Below the pieces are notes generated by a model that did not search any database, had not been told where the DNA came from, and was given only the letters and a program-made list of their open reading frames with translations. Made by a program: the position numbers and the translations under genes. From positions 62,001 to 126,000 of the forward strand of contig JADQAV010000023.1 of assembly GCA_019775845.1 (NCBI GenBank): DNA of 64,000 nucleotides, given 5' to 3'. The DNA is from Myrmaecium sp. VS I D KN 1. Its lineage: Eukaryota > Ascomycota > Dothideomycetes > Valsariales > Valsariaceae. Below are positions 19,963 to 54,837 of this stretch, piece by piece (positions within the stretch are counted from its first letter, which is position 1; each line of letters begins with the position of its first letter).

Positions 19963-22900
19963 ATGGCAGCACCCCCTGGACTGCCGACACGCTTCCCATG
20001 TTGGGTCAAGGCCGTATATTCGTGGGGAGGAGAGGTATGGACTTATCGCCAAACCCCGGCACAACCGCCGTGCTCGGAGCGCACCGCGGCTACTGTACCG
20101 CCCACCTGCTGCTGCTACCGCTGACGCTGACACCGGTGTATTTGCAACCGACAGACGAAGAAGGACCTGGGATTCATCGAGGGCGACATCATCGAATGCA
20201 TCAACGCCGGCGACGGCGCGTGGTGGATGGGCCGGCTGAAGAGGGACCGGCGCATGGTCGGCGTCTTCCCGTCCAACTTCGTCGAGATCCTGCCCGACCA
20301 GCTGCAACCGTGGAATCGCCATGTGAGCCCGCTGCCCATCCGCAATGGCAGCAACGCGAGCGCGACCCAGCGCGGGAGCCCGAACTCGACCCCGCCCAAG
20401 GCCACCCCGCAGAAGTCGAAGAGCATGTTCCGGAAGCCGTTCTCCGCGCACGCGGCTGCCGGTCCGCCCAACGCGGCCGCTGCGGCTCGTAAGACCGGGG
20501 CTGCGAACATGTCCCCCCACGGTAGCGTTACGAAGGCGCATAAGCCGTACTCGTCGATGAAGAAGCCCTCCCCGTACGAGATGCCTCAAACCACACCCAA
20601 GAAACCTTCGCCGCCGCCAGTCATTGCGCCGATACCCCCACGGCCCTCCAACATGTCTAACTTGCGGGCGAAGTCTCCAATGCCACCGCCGGTGCATGGC
20701 TCGCCATATCGCGCGCCTTCTCCCGCTCCTCCTCCACAGATGGAACCGCCCAGGATGCCATCACCCGCGCCGCCGATCATGGACGACGGCAGAGGCCCCT
20801 CCCCAACTCCTTCCTTCCACACTGTCCAGCCGGCAAGGATAACGTCGCCAGCGCCATCATATCACCCCCATCAGATGATCAGAGTAAGGTCACCACCAAG
20901 CCAATTCCAAGATTACAGACGGCAATCACCGTATCAAGATCCCCGAGGACCCTCTCCCGTCGCGCATCAGAACTTCAGAGCCCCTTCGCCAAATCCGTAT
21001 CAGGACTTTAGAGGCCCTTCACCGAATCCTTATCAGGGACAAAGGGGTCCTTCGCCGAGTCCGTACCACGTGCAAAGAGAGCCGTCTCCGGACCCATATG
21101 CAATGGCACTCACGCTGCATCGGGGAGCATCTTCTCAACCGTATATGGATCGCGAGGATTCTCCTCCGCCGCCGCCTCCACCTCCACACCGTGTCCTCCG
21201 CCACTCCGCTGGAGTTCCATCCCCAAGGCCTCACACCCCCTTGGCGCACCCTTCAAGAACTCCATCTCCGCATCCTTACGGCGACAATGGTGTCCAGGAT
21301 GGGTATCGGAGCGGTTTCCACACTCCTAACCCTCCTTCTCCCGCACCACCTTCCCCTGGACACACTGGCCATACTCCGTCTCCGCTTACGCATGCTATGA
21401 ACGATGTGATGTCCTCCCTGCAAGGCATGGGCCTGCCGCCGAGTCCATCCCTGAGAAGTCATTCCCCCGGAGTCCCGCCGAGGATCCCTACGCCTGAACG
21501 GGCGGCGTCACCGTCGAACATCTGGTCACCAGACGCATTCGACGAAATCTACAAGGAATCCGCGCGGAAGATTCGACCTCTTACCTCTCACGGTTCGCAT
21601 GCTGGTTCTGGACAGAGCGATGAGGAAGAGGAGTACAACTCGCAGTATGGCTCGCCCCCGCAGGTCCAGAGTTACGTGCAGCGCATGGAAAACCGGCTCT
21701 CGCACATGCAGCATGATCACCCTGCTCCATTGAGCAACTACTCTAGTTCCAACCCGTCCTCACGGGACGGTCCGCCACCTGCGCCGCCGCTGAAAGGGCA
21801 GCAATATCGACCCCAATCGTCTATGAGCCGAGCAGCGCGCGAACCCGAACAACAAACCCAAACCGTCGGCCGATCGCGAGGAGGTTCGATTCGGAAGGCC
21901 CTGAAGAAGCGAAAGTCCGCTTATGAGCTGGGTAAAGACACCTTGAGCCGTACCTTCACGACCAAGAGCAACGGCACTAGCGCCTCTTCGAATGCGTACT
22001 CCACAACCACGACGAGCACCACCAGTACAGCCATGACCGCTCGCAGTTTGATGAGTGGCTACTCTGCCGGAGGCTTTAGCGCCACGAGTGCCGGCAGCCT
22101 GGCGAAGCGCAAGTTCGGTCTGGGACAAAGACCTCACAGCGTCATCGATACGAGGGAGGCGACTCCCAGCAGGTTTGGGTTCCGGAAGGAAGATAACAGG
22201 CCGGAGACTCCATTCACCGGGGTTACGTACCATTCCAGTCAGGATGGATCGGAACAGCAACAGGAGTGGCAAGAGACCAGCGGGCCGCTAGGCGGGCTTC
22301 GATCCCCACGGAAGAAGAAGAGTGGTTTCTTCAAGAGGATGGTGGAGACGGCAAAGACGGGCGCGGCGAATGCAAGAAGCACGATTGCTGCTGGCAGCTT
22401 GAGCAGGCCGACTTCCAGGCAAAGCGTTAAAGCCATCCCAGACGGCATCAACGCGATCGCCGGCGGCCGCGCCACACCGGTTTCCCGGACGTCTAGCCCT
22501 GCCAAGGACATGAGCGCCAGCCAGATCGACTGGATGCAGGTTCGTCGGGACGTGAACCGCGCCAACTCCCTGAGCAAGAATGAGCGCATGGAGCGTGCTG
22601 AGCGCTGCGAGCTGAATGATATCGCCGTCATTAATCCGGTCGATGCTCTTTACGAAACCGCGGAAGGTGATGAAGGTATCGACGGCCTACCCATCGCTGA
22701 GCCCACGGACTTCTTCGCCTCTAATCTCACCCTGGTGGACAAGTCCGCGCGGTTCATCAACAGTCTGCCGCCGACGATCAATCCTACCTCGCTTGCTCAA
22801 GGCTATGTTTGCCGTCCCTATCGGAGCGATGTCCAACGGCTTCGTGCCATCTTTACCTGGGTTGCCGAACGCATCGTGTGGGAAGAAGACTTTGAGGGCC

Positions 22901-24333
22901 AAGTCGATAGCCGCCGCACCATCCAGACCCGGCGCGGTTGCAGCGAGGAGATTGCCGTTCTGGTCATGGAGATGTGCAGCGCGGTTGGTCTGCACGCCGA
23001 GGTGGTGAGGGGCTACCTCAAAGCTCCTGGCGAGATTCTGGACCTCGAAATGGTGGCCCGGCCCAACCACTGGTGGAACGCGGTGATCGTGGACGGCGAG
23101 TGGCGGATCATCGACTGCAGCCTCGCGAGCCCGACGAATCCCAAGCGCGGCCGGTACGCCAGCGCCAGCTCGCAGGCGGCCGAGACGTGGTACTTCCTCG
23201 CCCGCCCGATGGAGATCTGCTACACGCACGTCCCGCTCCTGCCGGAGCAGCAGCACATCGTGCCGCCGGTGCCGCACGAGATCCTCATGGCGCTGCCGTG
23301 CGCGTGCCCGCCGTACTTCCGCAACCGCCTCCAGATGGCCGATTTCGACACCAGCCTGCTGACCCTGGAGAACCTGGAGCTCGCGCACATCTACTTCTAC
23401 GTCCCCGAGGAGGTCGAGTGCGTGGCGGAGGTGGAGGCGAAGCAGTTCGTTCAGGATGCTGACGGCGACACGTTTGAGAGTGGAGAGATGGTGAAGAAGC
23501 GCGCGTTGGCGCAGGCTGAGTGGATTGGAGGGAGGAAGCGGTACACGGTGAAGGCGTTGCTGCCGGGGGATGAAGGGCATGGTGTGCTGAAGGTGTATGC
23601 GGGGAGGAGAGGGCTGATGGTGAGTACCAGTATTGATGAAAGAGAGGAGTCGTCTCCAGAGGAAACCATGACTAACTCCCACCAACAGCACTCCATCAAA
23701 TCCAACCCGCACCCGCTCGCCTTCGCCCTCCCCATCACGCACACCGGCTCCAACCCGCCCTACGACTTCCTCCGCCTCCACCCCACGCCCCACGCGACCC
23801 GCCACGACCTCTACGTCGCCCAGCCGCAGTGCTACCGCCTCCCCGCCAACAACACCTTCGTCTTCACCGTCCGCCAACACCCCTCCAGCCTGTCGGGCTC
23901 CTCCTTCAGCCCGCAAATCGGCGGCGTGGGCGGCGTGGGCGGCGTCGGGCGACCGACATCCCCCAACCCCTTCGCCCGCCCCACCTCCGCCCTCTCCACC
24001 CACAGCGTCTCCGTCTCGGGCTCGCAGTACTCGGCCTCGTCCGAAACGTCATCCGCCGCCGCTGCTGCCGGGGGCAAGGGTTCCGCCAGCGGCCCCAAAC
24101 CGGCGAAGCTCGCGATCCAGTCCCCCGGCGGCAAGATCATCCGGCTGCTGCGCAAGGGCCAGGAGCAGCCGGACAGCCGCCCTCGCAGCCGGGACGAGGC
24201 GAGCGGCGAGTGCGCGGACGGGACGGTGTGGGAGACGGTGGTGAAGGTGGGCGAGCGCGGGGTCTGGCGCGGGCTCGTCCTCGCGGACCGCAGCGCGCGC
24301 TGGTGCGTGTTTGCGGAGTGGGAGTGTGTTTGA
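19963..24333 (+). CDS. CYK3: cytokinesis protein 3 (SH3 + degenerate transglutaminase-like domain)
   Basis: Exons 19963-20034, 20155-23619 and 23689-24333; 1393 aa. The first 24 codons (RFPCWVKAVYSWGGE) join TKKDLGFIEGDIIECINAGDGAWWMGRL to make a complete N-terminal SH3 domain (about residues 13-70), ending VGVFPSNFVEIL. A long Pro/Ser-rich linker carries four to five PSPxPYQ repeats (about residues 285-335). The transglutaminase-like domain spans about 870-1020: RRGCSEEIAVL, then NHWWNAVI (His about 996) and IIDCSLASP (Asp about 1011). Aligned to the usual GxCxxYA, the nucleophile position is Ser (about 954), preceded by Cys, so the triad looks incomplete, as known for fungal Cyk3. Cyk3 promotes primary septum formation at the actomyosin ring. 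The last intron (23620-23688) is 69 nt, stop-free and in frame, but has donor GTGAGT and branch CTAAC. Confidence 0.93.
20940..21105 (+). repeat. tandem Pro/Ser-rich coding repeat in CYK3
   Basis: About four to five degenerate units of 12-13 codons, each with the core (R/E)GPSPxPYQ, lie between the SH3 and transglutaminase-like domains. PxxP content makes SH3 or WW ligand function plausible, which is inference. Confidence 0.75.
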
Positions 24334-36075: not shown

Positions 36076-38547
36076 TCAGTTTTCCGATCTCGCCTTTCTC
36101 GCATTGATTGTGCCTCGCTGCAGCTTTCGGATGAAGTCATTCTTGGCTCCCTTCTTCTTAAGCTGTTGATTCTTCGATTTGACGTCAACCTCTACGTACG
36201 CCATGTCCGCACCTCCGCCTAATTCTGCAAGCGAACCAGCGAATCTCCGGACACCGGACTTTTTGTTCCGGTTAAATTTGCCCTTTCCGTTGCTGAATAG
36301 ATCGTCTTCAATCTTTTCGGTAGATCCCAAGTCGTCGCCTTTCTGCGATATGGTGAAGAGCACTTCGGCTAAGAGATCGTGCTGTTCCTGCTTTTCTCTG
36401 AAGGCCAGGTTGGGCATGCTTTCTAAGCCTTTAAGAGTAGTAATTACCTTGAAAGCATAACCTTGGTCAACTAAGAAAGCTTGGCGTTTGGAAGAATAGT
36501 ACATCTCCATGGTGTCCTTGCTCACTAAAGAATAGAAAAAAGCGTTGAAACCCTCGTCATTACGCCTTTTGGCCCGCAGGATACGGCCGAGTCGCTGCGC
36601 TTCTTGACGACGTGAGCCGTAATGCGAAGAGATCTGAATCAGGCATGTTGCCTCGGGTAGATCAAGTGAGGTATCGCCGATTTTGGAAAGGAAGATTGTG
36701 TTAATCTCTGGGTTATGTTGGAAATTTTCGAGGATCCGAAGCCGTTCAGATTGAGGTGTGCCTCCATAGATATATGCCTTTTTGAGCTGCTTTGCATATC
36801 GCTCAAGAGCATAGACGTTGTCAGAGAAGACAATGATTTTGTCACCACGCTTCTCGTGGTAGTCGATCAGAAATTGACAATACTGAAATTTGGTTGGGTT
36901 CATTGTGAACAGGAGAGCCCGTTTGTTGACACTGTCGGCTTGCAGGTATTCTGTATAAAACTCCGTCGTCATTGGACACCAGACCTCCGCACACTGAACC
37001 CTGGCTATGTGACCTTCTGCGGAGAGCTCTTGCCAATTGGCCTCGTACAGTTTCGGTCCGATCAGAAAATTCAAGTCTTCAATTTTGTCGTCCTCTCTGA
37101 GCAGAGTGGCCGTGAGACCAAGCTTCGAGTGTGATGCGATAGAATAAGTGACTTTCTTGAACATTTCCGCAGGTACGACATGGACTTCGTCGGCGATTAA
37201 CAAACCCCACTCTCTTGACTGGATGAAATCCATGATTTTCTTCGATTCGTAGGAGCGATTGCGAGACTGGGTGATCATACTGTAGGTGCTGATGATCACA
37301 CCTGCGTTACCCGGAAATTTGTCCTTGGTTTCAGCCGTGAAGCTTGCGATGTCGTTTGGGTTGATGTTCGTCCATTTCAGGAATTCATTCCTCCACTGCA
37401 CTACAGACATCGAACTGGTACACAAGACCATGATCGATTTCTTCACCGTACAGGCTGCAGTGATACCCACAAGCGTCTTGCCAGCACCGCAAGGGAGAAC
37501 GATGATACCAGAACGCGCTCGACCGTTGCCGAACATCTTGTTCAAGGCCTGCTCTTGGTACGGTCGAATCTGTGCTTGGGGCTTCAAGTCAATGTCCAGG
37601 TTGGCATTACGCATATCCATGTGGAAATCATATTCCTCAGTAAGGGGAAGTTCGATCTCCCGAGCTCGTTTAGCAATCTTCTGCACGTCCTCCCCTCGGA
37701 TCTGGAAAGAATGCACTTGGTCTACCTCCTCTTCTTCATCATCATCCTCTTGTCTGAGCTCCGCGAGATAATCTGCCTCGGTGGTTTCGTTTTCAACCAG
37801 GTTCGTAGCTTGACTGGCATTTGCGCCTGCTGCCAACTTCGTCCCCGGAATGACTAGACTTCCTTGTTTTGGTGCAGCTTCTTTCATAAGCCCCTCCGTA
37901 GTATCGACTCGACATGGCCCAATGATCGGATCCTGAAGCAGTTTCTGTAGGACATTGGGATCTGTACTCTCCACGAAATAACGTGTGTTCTTTAGAACCA
38001 AGCGGGCTTTGCCGAAGGACGACGTAGATGTGATGATGTGGTTGATAATATCCTCTGGCAATTCTACTTTAGAGATTGCGTCCAAGTCGTGGATGATATC
38101 CTCGGTCGTGAGACCAACTGATACGGCAGCGAAGAGCGAGTGTGGCGTAAGAGTATATTCATGCATTTTGGAAACGCGGGACTGGGGCTCCGCTATATTG
38201 ATTAAAAAATTCTGAGCATCCCTAAATGATCTCGAGAAGCTCTCCAGAATAATATGGCCCTGCGGATCAACCCAGCAGGGCCGTTTCTTATGATCTGGCT
38301 TTAACTTCGCATCGAACTCATCGCATTTGGGGAACAAATGAGAAGCGGGATCCTGATGCTGCTTAGGCCGCGTCCGTACTGGTTGGTACTTCTGTACCAG
38401 GTGCTGTATGTCTTCCGTTTCAGTCTCGCTCATCGCAGGTGACTCGGTGTACTCTTCATCGCTATGATCTGGGGTCGGTCGCTCCGACGCTATGCGCTTC
38501 GCAGGCCTTCCTGAGGCCGCCGAAGTTGGTTTACGCTTCGGAGGCAT
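36076..38547 (-). CDS. SSL2: TFIIH helicase/translocase XPB (Ssl2/Rad25), intronless
   Basis: 823 aa in one exon. N-terminal basic/acidic region, then the XPB damage-recognition-like domain, with superfamily 2 helicase motifs: Walker A LPCGAGKT (about residues 351-358), motif II as DEVH (about 453), motif III GLTATLLRED with the XPB RED motif (about 485), and the second RecA domain with IVFSDNVYALERYA, INTIFLSKIGDTSLDLPEA and QRLGRILRAKRR. The C-terminus ends with the Lys-rich tail normal for Ssl2. Ssl2 is the double-stranded DNA translocase of TFIIH that opens promoters and acts in nucleotide excision repair. All catalytic motifs look intact. It is divergent from HID1 with a 573-nt shared upstream region. 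Confidence 0.98.
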   Translation of the reverse strand: MPPKRKPTSAASGRPAKRIASERPTPDHSDEEYTESPAMSETETEDIQHLVQKYQPVRTRPKQHQDPASHLFPKCDEFDAKLKPDHKKRPCWVDPQGHIILESFSRSFRDAQNFLINIAEPQSRVSKMHEYTLTPHSLFAAVSVGLTTEDIIHDLDAISKVELPEDIINHIITSTSSFGKARLVLKNTRYFVESTDPNVLQKLLQDPIIGPCRVDTTEGLMKEAAPKQGSLVIPGTKLAAGANASQATNLVENETTEADYLAELRQEDDDEEEEVDQVHSFQIRGEDVQKIAKRAREIELPLTEEYDFHMDMRNANLDIDLKPQAQIRPYQEQALNKMFGNGRARSGIIVLPCGAGKTLVGITAACTVKKSIMVLCTSSMSVVQWRNEFLKWTNINPNDIASFTAETKDKFPGNAGVIISTYSMITQSRNRSYESKKIMDFIQSREWGLLIADEVHVVPAEMFKKVTYSIASHSKLGLTATLLREDDKIEDLNFLIGPKLYEANWQELSAEGHIARVQCAEVWCPMTTEFYTEYLQADSVNKRALLFTMNPTKFQYCQFLIDYHEKRGDKIIVFSDNVYALERYAKQLKKAYIYGGTPQSERLRILENFQHNPEINTIFLSKIGDTSLDLPEATCLIQISSHYGSRRQEAQRLGRILRAKRRNDEGFNAFFYSLVSKDTMEMYYSSKRQAFLVDQGYAFKVITTLKGLESMPNLAFREKQEQHDLLAEVLFTISQKGDDLGSTEKIEDDLFSNGKGKFNRNKKSGVRRFAGSLAELGGGADMAYVEVDVKSKNQQLKKKGAKNDFIRKLQRGTINARKARSEN

Positions 38548-44281: not shown

Positions 44282-45419
44282 TGGGTGATGAGGGATGGGA
44301 TGGATGGTGATGTTGTGAGGGGGATAGATGTGATGTGGATCGTCTTGTTGGTTACGTTGTAATCCGTCTTGGATGGGATTTATATTGTCTGTCTTTGGTT
44401 CGGGGTTGCTGCGCAGCGTGGTATGTGTGATATGGAAAGGCGTAGTTATGAGGAGCAGACGATGGATTTCTCCTTACGTTTTTCTTTCCTCTGTTTATTT
44501 CATGTTGTTTATGTTTTGGTTTTTCTGCGAGTAGGCGGAGGTGTTCACAATACTACATAATGATCAGGCTTACGACTGCCGAACATATGGTATCTACCGA
44601 TGGAGAGACATGCATATAAATGATAGTACGTTTCTTCCGCTGCGAAAATTGGAGTAAAAGCTATTATTGTTCCATGCTGTTCACTGTTGTTCGCTGCTCG
44701 ACCGCCGGAGTCTGCTGTAGGTTTGCACTGACCGCTCCGTCCAGACGATCGACGATCGGGAAGGCTGAAAGAGAGCGGCCGTCAGGCTGGCGACGCACTT
44801 GCACCTGCCAAGCCTCGCACCTAACGGCCCAACCGCCACCAAGGAAAAAGCCCCGCGCACCGCTTACCCGCCAAAATTCTGCTCGATCGCTCGTGGGTTT
44901 TCTCCTCCTCGCTGCTTGTGTCGCACCGCTTCTTCCCCCCTTCTTGTATTTTTCTCTCTCTCTCTCTCTCTTCAATCTGTCAATTCTGCAACGACAGTGT
45001 GACTGCGACCTCTTCTTCCGTGTCGTCCCACCTCGCACTGCTCGAGGCGACTGTCGTGACGGCGAAAACGTCTCTCCATCTTTCCCCAGCTCGGGTGCTC
45101 GGCCAGTGACGTGCCCTGCCTGTCTCCTGCAGCTGCAACGCAGACCGCAGACCGCGACTTCTTCTCTCCCCGACCCGCCCTCACGCACGCATAATTGTAC
45201 TTCGCTCTTCCCAGCAGGGTCTATTTAGATTTACCTTGCAAAACCCTTCCCCTCTTCACAACATCCACCTTCCCCGACCATCTTTCCTCCGGCCTCTGCC
45301 GCTCTCCGTCCGAACACCTTCAAGCTGGCACACCTCGATCATCCCGCAAATTCTTCCACTGCTAGGTCTTGAGCGGCCGCGCAGACCTCACCCTTCCGGT
45401 TTACCTTGACCTTCGTTCC
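44282..45419. promoter_or_regulatory. SPE2 promoter and AUG-free leader
   Basis: Contains the 3' UTR of the hydrolase gene, then a pyrimidine-rich tract with (TC)n at about 44952-44972, a common fungal core promoter sign. No ATG occurs on the + strand from 44677 to 45419 (743 nt), suggesting that much of it is transcribed leader. Confidence 0.6.
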
Positions 45420-45568
45420 ATGCGTCAAGAGGACCTACTGCGATTCCTAGCTAAGCCTGCGAAGTGAGTATCTGCTTGCTATGCCTATATCCTCGTTGCT
45501 TTTCATTCCCCACGACCTCTGGAGATGGGACGAAAGCTAACGAAAACTCATCGCGCAGGCCCAGATAA
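45420..45568 (+). CDS. upstream ORF in SPE2 leader, spans a leader intron
   Basis: First ATG of the leader. Unspliced, it ends at 45467 and encodes MRQEDLLRFLAKPAK. A leader intron 45464-45558 (donor GTGAGT, branch GCTAAC, acceptor GCGCAG, 95 nt) interrupts its penultimate codon; spliced, it is 45420-45463 plus 45559-45568 and encodes MRQEDLLRFLAKPAKPR. No other ATG lies between the acceptor and the main start (45999). Short uORFs mediating polyamine feedback are known in animal and plant SAM decarboxylase mRNAs; function here is inference. Confidence 0.65.
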
Positions 45569-45998
45569 CACCCCCAACTCCCACCACCACCACCACCTCG
45601 TAACCCACCCTTTTTGAAGCAGATACCCTCGTCTGCTGGACCCGATACTTTACCAGGGTATCGGAATCTGTCAGTGCGAGGACCGCCGCGCATAGTCACC
45701 ATTTCGCCGAAGAAGGCTTTCTTCATCCCCCACAACGCCCGCCCTCCCTAACGTCCTTTACCAAAGGTCGTTTTTCTCCCATATAACATTGCTGCTGGCA
45801 CCAGCCAGCCTCTACGAATCTCCCACTCTCCCGTGGGCCTTCTCCTTCAGGCGGACACCGCATTGTTCGTCTGGGTGGCAGATAGTGCTTCACTAGCCGC
45901 AAAGCCACAACCCTCCTCTCCCATCCGTCTTCAGTCGCAAGCCAATCCCGATCGATCGTAGACACGCGACGGCGCTTACCGTTCGAACCTCCACGGAT

Positions 45999-47606
45999 AT
46001 GGTCGCTACCGAAATCCCCAAGCATTATACGGCTTCTCCATCTTCGTATGGTACTACGCCGCACCTGACTATCAACCGCGAGGCTACTATCGATCTCGAT
46101 TCCAGCAATGCTTTTGAGGGTCCCGAGAAGCTCTTAGAAGTATGGTTCAGCCCCTCGGCTACCGCGCTCCCGCCCAGCGCCGGCCCCATCGGACTGAAGT
46201 CCGTCTCTGCTGAGGTCTGGAAGGAGATGCTCGACTTGGTCAACTGCAAGGTTTTGTCCGTGGTCGAGTCCGAACATGTCGATGCCTACCTCCTTTCCGA
46301 GTCTAGCATGTTCGTCTTCCCTCACAAGCTCGTGCTGAAGACTTGCGGCACCACCACCCTGCTTCTGGGTCTTCCCCGGATGTTGGAGATCGCGCACCTC
46401 AACGCTGGCTTCCCCGGTATCGAGCCTGATCTTGTCAAGGGCATCCCCGCCGCCGCCACGCCTTACCGGGTTTTCTACAGCAGGAAGAACTTCCAGTTCC
46501 CCGACCAGCAGCGCGGTCCCCACCGCAGCTGGAGGGATGAAGTCCGATTCCTCGACAAGATGTTCTTGGGAGGCAGCGCCTACATGATTGGCAAGATGAA
46601 CGGAGAGCACTGGTACCTCTACATCACCAGCCCGCACACTCAGCTGACTCCGCCTGCTTCCCCTGGCGATGAGAAGGCGACTGGCTTGGAGACGCAGACG
46701 AAGTACATCCATGCGCCCGTGGCCATGATGCCCGGCACTGCTGAAGACCAGCAGGACGAGACTCTGGAGATCTTGATGACCGACCTTGACGAGCAGAACG
46801 CCAGACAGTTCTATCTCGAGGACGCGAGTGCGGTCGCGGAAGGTCTACATGTCCAGAAGATCCGTGAGATGCGCAAGAAGGCTGTCGCGTCCCTTGGCAC
46901 CATTGATGAGGAAGCCACCCCTGAATCCAGCATGGCTGGCAGCGCCTTCCTCAACGGCCGGACCAGGGATACCGGTAGTGACTTTGACGTCTTTGAGCAG
47001 ACCTCGTCCGACCACAGTGGCTTCACCAGCGAGGATTCCAAGTCCGACGACCTTACCTTCCCTGAGGAGCTGACTACCGAAGGCCATCTTCTCGGATCCA
47101 TCGTCAGCGACCACTGCGGTCTTTCCGATGTCTATCCTCTCACCAAGTACCCGGACGCTCGCATCGACGCGTACCTGTTCACGCCCTGCGGCTTCTCCGC
47201 CAACGGTGTCATCCCCGCTCCTCCCGGCGTCGCTCCCACCGACGGCAGCAACAGCACGCACTACTTCACCGTGCACGTCACGCCGGAGCCCCATTGCTCG
47301 TACGCGTCCTTCGAGACGAACGTGCCCGCCAAGCAGACCGGCCGCGAGACCGCCGACATCGTCGAGCACGTCGCCAACATCTTCAAGCCCGGCCGCTTCA
47401 GCGTGACGCTCTTTGAGGCCAAGCCGGCGGGCGAGGCCGAGAAGATTGGCGACGCGGCTAAGCGCTCTGGTCGTATGGATAGCATCGCGGGCTACCGCCG
47501 GGTGGACCGCATCGTTCATGATCTGGATGGGTATGACCTTGTCTTCCGGTACTATGAGCGCAATGACTGGAAGGGTGGCGCGCCGCGCTTGGGCGAGAAT
47601 TACTGA
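45999..47606 (+). CDS. SPE2: S-adenosylmethionine decarboxylase proenzyme
   Basis: 535 aa, intronless CDS. The self-processing site LSESSMFVFPHK is present: cleavage between Glu101 and Ser102 makes the pyruvoyl cofactor on Ser102. The following VLKTCGTTTLL carries the conserved catalytic Cys (about residue 115). YSRKNFQFPDQQRGPHRSWRDEV and GKMNGEHWYLY are also family blocks. The enzyme makes decarboxylated SAM, the aminopropyl donor for spermidine. Fungal enzymes are longer than animal ones, and the insert here (about residues 215-345, acidic and Ser-rich) agrees. C-terminal HVTPEPHCSYASFETN holds the conserved His region needed for processing. The start gives the normal N-terminus before the core; the long leader with one uORF suggests translational control. 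Confidence 0.97.
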   Translation: MVATEIPKHYTASPSSYGTTPHLTINREATIDLDSSNAFEGPEKLLEVWFSPSATALPPSAGPIGLKSVSAEVWKEMLDLVNCKVLSVVESEHVDAYLLSESSMFVFPHKLVLKTCGTTTLLLGLPRMLEIAHLNAGFPGIEPDLVKGIPAAATPYRVFYSRKNFQFPDQQRGPHRSWRDEVRFLDKMFLGGSAYMIGKMNGEHWYLYITSPHTQLTPPASPGDEKATGLETQTKYIHAPVAMMPGTAEDQQDETLEILMTDLDEQNARQFYLEDASAVAEGLHVQKIREMRKKAVASLGTIDEEATPESSMAGSAFLNGRTRDTGSDFDVFEQTSSDHSGFTSEDSKSDDLTFPEELTTEGHLLGSIVSDHCGLSDVYPLTKYPDARIDAYLFTPCGFSANGVIPAPPGVAPTDGSNSTHYFTVHVTPEPHCSYASFETNVPAKQTGRETADIVEHVANIFKPGRFSVTLFEAKPAGEAEKIGDAAKRSGRMDSIAGYRRVDRIVHDLDGYDLVFRYYERNDWKGGAPRLGENY

Positions 47607-53553: not shown

Positions 53554-54837
53554 CTAATACCTCTTCTTCGAGTTCACGTTTCTTCCCGCGCCGACCTTGA
53601 GACGTCCGCCGGTCTTGCCCCGTTCACCGGTGAGGATGGCGGGAAGGTAATCCTCATCCATCAGGTCCCTCTGCTTCTGCCGCTTCTGCTCATTCACAGC
53701 CCTCATGTACTCCTTCTGGTCCTCGGCGAGGAGCAGCTCGTTGCCCCAGCCGCCCTTGCCGCCGCCCTTGACCTTGCCGTTGGCGCTGCCGGCGACGGCC
53801 TTGGGCACGCTGTACCGGTTGCCGCGGTTGTTCCACTGCATGTTGCGCTTGAGGTGCAGCTTGAACTCGCCGTTGGCGCTGGTGGAGCAGGAGACCTTGG
53901 TGAGGGCGTCCTTGCCGCAGCGGGGGCAGAACTGCTTGTCCATCTGCTTGGTGGTGTAGAAGCAGGCGTGGCAGCGGAGGATCCAGGTGCGCAGGTGCTT
54001 GACCCGCTGCAGGCCCGACGTGATCAGGTTGAGGTTCATCTGCAGGAGGACGTTCTGCAGCGCGAAGTCGCCTGAGATGGTCGCCACGCGCATGTTCTGC
54101 GGGCTGGCCGTCTCGTCGACGACGCTGTTGTTGTCGCGCGCTTGGTGCTTCTTCAGGTTGGATGGCGTGATCCAGCCACCGTCGGAGTCGTCGGAGTCTT
54201 CTTCGGCTTCGTCCGCGGCCGCGGATGGTTCCGGTTGTGCTGGGGTCGCCTGTTCCGGCGTGCTCTCGCCTGATATCTCCAGCTTCTGAATAGATTCTTC
54301 CACCTCTTTAACGACTAATGCTGCAGAAGATGTCTCCTCCGCTTTCTCCGTGGAATCCACCTCCCGCTCCTCTGCCTGTTGGTCCTTGCTCGACGGAGCG
54401 GGCTCGGTTTTCGCAGCATCGGCCTCTGCAGGTTTATCCGTCTCTTCTGCCTTTTTCTCCTTGCTCGGAGGTGGTCCGTTGGTCCTCTTCTGGCCAGGAA
54501 CCGATCGTAATCTCCAGTCACCCCCGTTCAGTTCACACTCCAGCTCGTACGCCAGCGCGATCACCTCCAAATCGTTCCTGCTCAGCACCGCATAGTCGCC
54601 GGTCTTCCGGGCGAAGTCCCCCACCGTTTTCAAGCTGTGCGGCGTCGGTGTGCGCAGGGTGAGAAACGGCATCAAGGTCGTTTCCAGCAGTCTCCGGGCC
54701 GCTTCATCGCGGATTTCTGAAATGATGGCTGGGGTGGTATAGAGGGCTTCCGCATTTTCTCTCAGGCGAGAGACCTCGTTGCGGATGATCGGACCAGCAT
54801 CGATTACGATGGAGTGAATCGGTTTTTGAGTCGCCAT
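53554..54837 (-). CDS. NOB1: 20S pre-rRNA D-site endonuclease NOB1
   Basis: 427 aa, intronless. N-terminal PIN domain: HSIVIDAGPII (first catalytic Asp), TTPAIISEIRDE and TGDYAVLSRNDLEVIALAYELE with the second and third acidic residues. A long disordered acidic linker (about residues 120-225) follows, then SDDSDGGWITPSNLKKHQ and the zinc ribbon CHACF...FCPRCG (about 290-310), and the NOB1 C-terminal LHLKRNMQWNNRGNRYSVPK. Nob1 cuts at site D to form the 18S 3' end in cytoplasmic pre-40S particles. All family landmarks are present and length matches the family (about 400-460 aa). Confidence 0.97.
   Translation of the reverse strand: MATQKPIHSIVIDAGPIIRNEVSRLRENAEALYTTPAIISEIRDEAARRLLETTLMPFLTLRTPTPHSLKTVGDFARKTGDYAVLSRNDLEVIALAYELECELNGGDWRLRSVPGQKRTNGPPPSKEKKAEETDKPAEADAAKTEPAPSSKDQQAEEREVDSTEKAEETSSAALVVKEVEESIQKLEISGESTPEQATPAQPEPSAAADEAEEDSDDSDGGWITPSNLKKHQARDNNSVVDETASPQNMRVATISGDFALQNVLLQMNLNLITSGLQRVKHLRTWILRCHACFYTTKQMDKQFCPRCGKDALTKVSCSTSANGEFKLHLKRNMQWNNRGNRYSVPKAVAGSANGKVKGGGKGGWGNELLLAEDQKEYMRAVNEQKRQKQRDLMDEDYLPAILTGERGKTGGRLKVGAGRNVNSKKRY

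Follow-up and report, generated by a model that had tools for sequence, protein, structure and literature searches.

A putative repressive leader of the Neurospora SAM-decarboxylase kind upstream of the SPE2 gene of a filamentous ascomycete

A hairpin motif termed SDC has been described upstream of fungal S-adenosylmethionine (SAM) decarboxylase genes, with 34 examples from 26 species and a stem of typically 11 bp (Li & Breaker, 2017; PMC5640933); this and the following statements refer to the portions of the cited articles considered here. The leader of the Neurospora crassa SAM decarboxylase gene NCU01083 contains two uORFs and is spliced from two donors to one acceptor into two forms; in the form made with the upstream donor, all that remains of the uORFs is the 3' half of uORF 2 (PMC5640933). 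Changes that break the N. crassa stem raised reporter output, re-pairing moved output back towards wild type, and the measured repression was credited to the hairpin (PMC5640933). The same article reported, in both cases as data not shown, that splice-form levels were unchanged in two stem mutants and that the motif exhibited no specific binding of spermine or spermidine. Its conclusions state that the motif likely coordinates with a uORF, and its section on SDC leaves uORF-mediated regulation open.

Leaders of polyamine-related genes have also been described in other organisms. The mammalian AdoMetDC mRNA carries the MAGDIS uORF (PMC4505036, PMC11900008), the uORF of yeast HOL1 ends with PS directly before the stop (PS-stop), and that of AZIN1 contains PPW (PMC11550727). 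The 5' UTR of Schizosaccharomyces pombe spe2 has been claimed to sense spermidine (cited in PMC10043782 and PMC11900008), and PMC10043782 regarded the support for this element as insufficient. Within the portions of the open-licence PMC literature covered, PMC5640933 was the only treatment found of a filamentous-fungal SAM decarboxylase leader, and no printed uORF peptide was found for a filamentous-fungal SAM decarboxylase; the parts considered of PMC3982577, PMC2075485, PMC8216456, PMC11428646, and PMC7049704 contained no filamentous-fungal SPE2 uORF.

The locus described here lies in a 64,000-nt stretch of DNA, which was analyzed as a whole and is referred to as the window, and the source genome appears, judging by its gene make-up, to be that of a filamentous ascomycete. 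A Pfam profile search of the ORF at 45999-47606 computationally identified PF01536 with an E-value of 3.3e-119 over profile positions 2-343 of 343, and the best PDB match was a SAM decarboxylase proenzyme (6.5e-53). PF01536 had a single match in the whole genome (25,660,682 bases), and the profile search confirmed the earlier identification of the gene as SPE2, the product of which is a spermidine-making enzyme. Other genes identified in the window by Pfam included an XPB/RAD25 helicase gene (36079-38547, minus strand), a gene for a CYK3-like protein with a transglutaminase-like domain (20227-24330, plus strand), and NOB1 (53557-54837, minus strand). Ornithine decarboxylase (ODC), at which the polyamine pathway is also controlled, had one match in the genome (L004, C5). 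An antizyme match (L005, C62:19479-19877, minus strand; PF02100, E = 2.9e-34) contained one TAA inside the matched stretch, which is perhaps an intron or the frameshift site known from antizyme genes. The features of the SPE2 locus are listed in the table.

Table. Computed and predicted features of SPE2 and its leader (positions in the window)
Feature	Position	Strand	Basis
Presumed first leader exon; ATG-free up to 45420	44980..45463	+	Start assumed just past pyrimidine tract
uORF read unspliced, MRQEDLLRFLAKPAK and stop, the TGA stop lying within the donor; exon-1 coding part 45420-45463	45420..45467	+	
Predicted leader intron, 95 nt, GTGAGT..CTAAC..CGCGCAG	45464..45558	+	Consensus donor, branch-like site, acceptor
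uORF exon-2 end when spliced: completes K, then P R, TAA	45559..45568	+	
Predicted hairpin, candidate SDC-like; 12 uninterrupted pairs, 6-nt loop, 123 nt before main ATG	45846..45875	+	
SPE2, S-adenosylmethionine decarboxylase, 535 aa, uninterrupted ORF	45999..47606	+	PF01536, PDB match

We compared this leader with that of N. crassa. Both lie upstream of a SAM decarboxylase gene, and in both a uORF ends past the 3' splice site of an intron in the leader (here, by predicted splicing, 45463 is joined to 45559-45568). A candidate hairpin of 12 predicted pairs precedes the gene here, and it was compared by stem length with the published motif, typically of 11 bp. The lengths were similarly set side by side: the N. 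crassa clone included about 905 bp upstream of the ORF (967 bp less 62), and with a start at 44980 the spliced leader here would span about 924 nt. The two leaders differ in the number of uORFs, with one here and two in N. crassa, and no consensus counterpart was found here of the further upstream donor whose use takes out the uORF starts in N. crassa. The lack of such a donor is compatible with membership of the SDC kind, as that donor is a feature of one species and not of the motif. The repression measured is that of the N. crassa leader.

These likenesses led us to favor, with moderate confidence, the view that the SPE2 leader is a repressive 5' leader of the Neurospora SAM-decarboxylase kind, in which a leaky uORF and a hairpin would lower translation. 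In the proposed mechanism, scanning ribosomes would traverse the long, AUG-depleted leader and reach one uORF with a weak start context, which some of them would translate while others leak past it; the exon downstream of the spliced leader intron would supply the last codons and the stop of the uORF; and the 12-bp hairpin, 123 nt before the main start, would then hinder scanning. The uORF and the hairpin would thus jointly hold SPE2 translation low, with polyamine feedback as the likely purpose. For this mechanism, we infer a transcription start, splicing, uORF translation, repression, and a polyamine response. The first-pass annotation had proposed a fungal counterpart of uORF-controlled SAM decarboxylases; a repressed leader with uORFs, one of them cut by an intron, has been published for N. 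crassa, which makes the general idea plausible though not new, and the repression there is credited to the hairpin. Given its likeness to the Neurospora layout, the SPE2 leader probably represents a further case of an established type of control rather than a new system.

The distribution of ATGs was computed for the whole upstream region. The plus strand between 44674 and 45999 contained three ATGs, at 45420, 45481, and 45525, the latter two of which lie inside the proposed intron. There was no ATG in the 743 nt from 44677 to 45419 or in the 440 nt from 45559 to 45998, which agrees with the first-pass annotation on both the ATG-free stretch before 45420 and the single uORF followed, intron excluded, by an ATG-free path to the main start; the stop of the spliced uORF and the main ATG are 430 nt apart. 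The leader start at 44980 is an assumption drawn from a pyrimidine tract at about 44936-44975. Chance levels were obtained from 2000 dinucleotide shuffles per stretch, as the fraction of shuffles with a count at or below that observed. The 743-nt stretch contained 0 ATGs against 3.8 expected (fraction 0.0115), and the 440 nt of that stretch counted from 44980 contained 0 where 2.2 were expected (0.071). For the 440-nt second exon, the observed and expected numbers were 0 and 2.6 (0.05), and for the 924-nt spliced leader with its assumed start they were 1 and 5.7 (0.0115). CAT, which is the same word on the other strand, occurred 13 times in the spliced leader against 13.1 expected, and the proposed intron contained two ATGs against 1.9 expected, neither of which is a depletion. 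The ATG depletion of the SPE2 leader is thus strand-specific, and its presence outside but not inside the intron is consistent with scanning of a leader from which the intron has been spliced. The 743-nt stretch probably takes in the promoter, because it runs through the pyrimidine tract.

The intron signals were evaluated by pattern. With the pattern used, 45464-45558 was the sole consensus intron in 44900-46000, and a consensus intron was present in 48 of 2000 mononucleotide-shuffled leaders; the strict form borne by the leader intron, GTGAGT..GCTAAC..CAG, occurred a single time when both strands of 264 kb were counted. Splicing at these sites is predicted. A second acceptor AG, absent from the first-pass annotation, was found 6 nt downstream at 45563-45564; it also gives an end of PAK directly before the stop (PAK-stop) and is the sole route found to a spliced mRNA that could carry the short form of the uORF. 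No GTRNGT donor able to splice the uORF out was found between 44900 and 45463. A weaker donor-like GTGTGA was located at 44997, and GTRNGT-type sites at 44717 and 44893 lie upstream of the pyrimidine tract.

Next, we considered the uORF itself. Its peptide reads MRQEDLLRFLAKPAK unspliced and MRQEDLLRFLAKPAKPR spliced, with 15 or 17 codons and ends of PAK-stop and PAKPR-stop, respectively. Two forms set by splicing had been proposed earlier, and both can be read as described, but the difference between them is partly automatic: the unspliced stop is the TGA of the donor GTGAGT, so that the short form is a by-product of donor and phase. A splicing switch of the uORF C-terminus is weakly founded: it is the donor that provides the stop of the unspliced form, and transcripts that keep the intron may not be translated at all. 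The uORF start has T at -3. Compared with 61 gene starts, its context scored at the 3rd percentile (the main SPE2 start at the 33rd), and compared with 1017 window ATGs it scored at the 18th. Leaky scanning is expected from so weak a context, which is equally what a chance ATG would show. In its own genome, the uORF peptide matched only itself.

Relatives were sought in bacterial, archaeal, and viral contigs. The whole SPE2 protein gave 31 pattern-matching stretches in bacterial and archaeal contigs, none of which was a relative; the 109-aa conserved part gave 51 stretches there and a single locus, in an Acidobacteria bin, where 13 residues matched; and the viral contigs gave one stretch, which was not a relative. 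These results are uninformative on conservation among fungi, because the collections contain no fungi. The Neurospora arginine attenuator peptide had no match in the genome under study and was likewise uninformative as a control.

The uORF could also act through its peptide, in that the nascent chain would stall ribosomes at the stop under high polyamines, as with MAGDIS, and splicing would possibly set an end of K-stop or KPR-stop; we regard such peptide-specific control, which is argued from analogy, as unlikely. It concerns the right gene, the weak start context would permit leaky scanning, and mature mRNA could be switched between the two forms through the tandem acceptor. Furthermore, a single uORF is kept in an otherwise ATG-depleted leader, in contrast to the ODC gene (L004 on C5, minus strand, upstream of 2455), whose likely start is preceded by 661 ATG-free nt. 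The likeness to the MAGDIS uORF lies in a short uORF in the leader of a gene for the same enzyme, but MAGDIS has 6 codons rather than 15 or 17, its peptide is another one, and the uORF here crosses an intron. HOL1 and AZIN1 resemble SPE2 as polyamine-pathway genes with a leaky uORF, and the spliced peptide here has proline next to last, as does the PS-stop of HOL1 in the portion of PMC11550727 considered, which is a thin resemblance; they are nevertheless other genes, and none of the known polyamine-stall ends (MAGDIS, PS-stop, and PPW) was found in the uORF peptide. In addition, the short form arises from donor sequence and phase, and it was for the hairpin, not for a peptide, that repression was demonstrated in N. 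crassa (PMC5640933, sections considered). A more specific version, in which the choice between acceptors 6 nt apart or intron retention sets the uORF end to K or KPR and only one of these forms stalls with polyamines, so that splicing would tune a nascent-peptide sensor, is very improbable.

To place the leader among its neighbors, we used a comparison set of 59 ORFs of at least 250 aa, SPE2 included, in 264 kb of the genome (the window plus 200 kb); the ORFs served as stand-ins for genes, so that not every start is correct and introns are left out of account. The predicted stem at 45846-45875, which the first-pass annotation did not mention, was the longest uninterrupted stem of the spliced leader, and 11 of its pairs were present in the MFE fold of 45559-46010. 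Stems of at least 12 pairs occurred in 5 of 300 dinucleotide-shuffled leaders. In the last 440 nt upstream, SPE2 alone among the 59 genes had a 12-pair stem, and 3 had at least 11 pairs; within 1019 nt upstream, the corresponding numbers were 4 genes with at least 12 pairs and 9 with at least 11. The significance of the hairpin is modest, and these statistics need some discounting, because it was looked for after the published 11-bp stem was known and as the second candidate after another hairpin, at 45642-45664. The prediction was made from one sequence.

That other hairpin was set aside: its 36-nt window ranked 540 of 10661 by energy, and its pattern CGATACN{6,14}GTATCG had 7 occurrences in the genome, compared with 4 of the reversed pattern used as a control. 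It forms, with 45618-45637, a pair of adjoining predicted hairpins 3' of the uORF. The folds of 45610-45700 (z -2.35, 1 of 200 shuffles as stable) and 45559-46010 (z -1.65, 4 of 100) were predicted to be only mildly more stable than shuffles. No Rfam family matched in the window at gathering scores, and the two matches in 44600-46100 had E-values of 0.98 and 6.6, far below gathering scores.

Should the stem at 45846-45875 repress on its own, the uORF would be incidental and too leaky to matter. Mutations of the N. crassa stem alone altered expression, which re-pairing restored (PMC5640933, sections considered), and a start context at the 3rd percentile of gene starts is consistent with this possibility. 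The remainder of the leader is, however, depleted of ATGs on the plus strand, which suggests that upstream starts matter, and the hairpin here is a predicted one; we therefore consider control by the hairpin alone distinctly unlikely.

Long ATG-free stretches were also found elsewhere in the comparison set. In the 1500 nt upstream, 3 of the 59 ORFs, SPE2 among them, had an ATG-free gap that reached or exceeded 743 nt; in the same set, SPE2 included, 3 ORFs had at most three ATGs in 1019 nt upstream and 2 had none in the last 440 nt. In the 1500 nt upstream of the CYK3-like gene, an ATG-free gap spans 767 nt, and the XPB/RAD25 gene has no ATG over the roughly 450 nt that precede its start. A long ATG-free leader is thus no peculiarity of SPE2, and what sets it apart from ODC is the retained uORF. 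An ordinary long leader, in which uORF, intron, and hairpin have no regulatory role, would be consistent with these gaps, with the long, ATG-free leader of ODC, and with the 9 genes bearing stems of at least 11 pairs within 1019 nt. Such a leader is quite improbable, given that the combination of features matches the leader of the N. crassa orthologue, for which repression was measured (PMC5640933, sections considered), and that the SPE2 stem was the strongest of the 59 genes in the last 440 nt.

A spermidine-sensing RNA switch, as claimed for the S. pombe spe2 element (cited in parts of PMC11900008 and PMC10043782), which likewise belongs to a fungal leader of this gene and was set beside the present one by description only, is extremely improbable, as that claim is disputed, with its support rated insufficient in the part of PMC10043782 considered, the N. 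crassa motif had no specific spermidine or spermine binding (PMC5640933, data not shown there), and a three-arm switch in 45618-45664 was dismissed on energetic grounds, the alternative pairing of 45622-45629 with 45655-45662 being predicted at -9.7 kcal/mol against -20.5 kcal/mol for the two local hairpins.

A repressive leader of the Neurospora kind thus remains the reading that we favor. In the sections of PMC5640933 considered, Li & Breaker did not settle which of uORFs, splicing, and hairpin carries SAM decarboxylase regulation in filamentous fungi. The leader described here, with a single uORF, a single predicted intron, and a single clear predicted hairpin, offers a simpler system for this question than that of Neurospora, and its tandem acceptor allows a switch of the peptide end to be tested directly. 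Should polyamine feedback operate in this leader, filamentous fungi would join animals and plants in the control of SAM decarboxylase through its leader.
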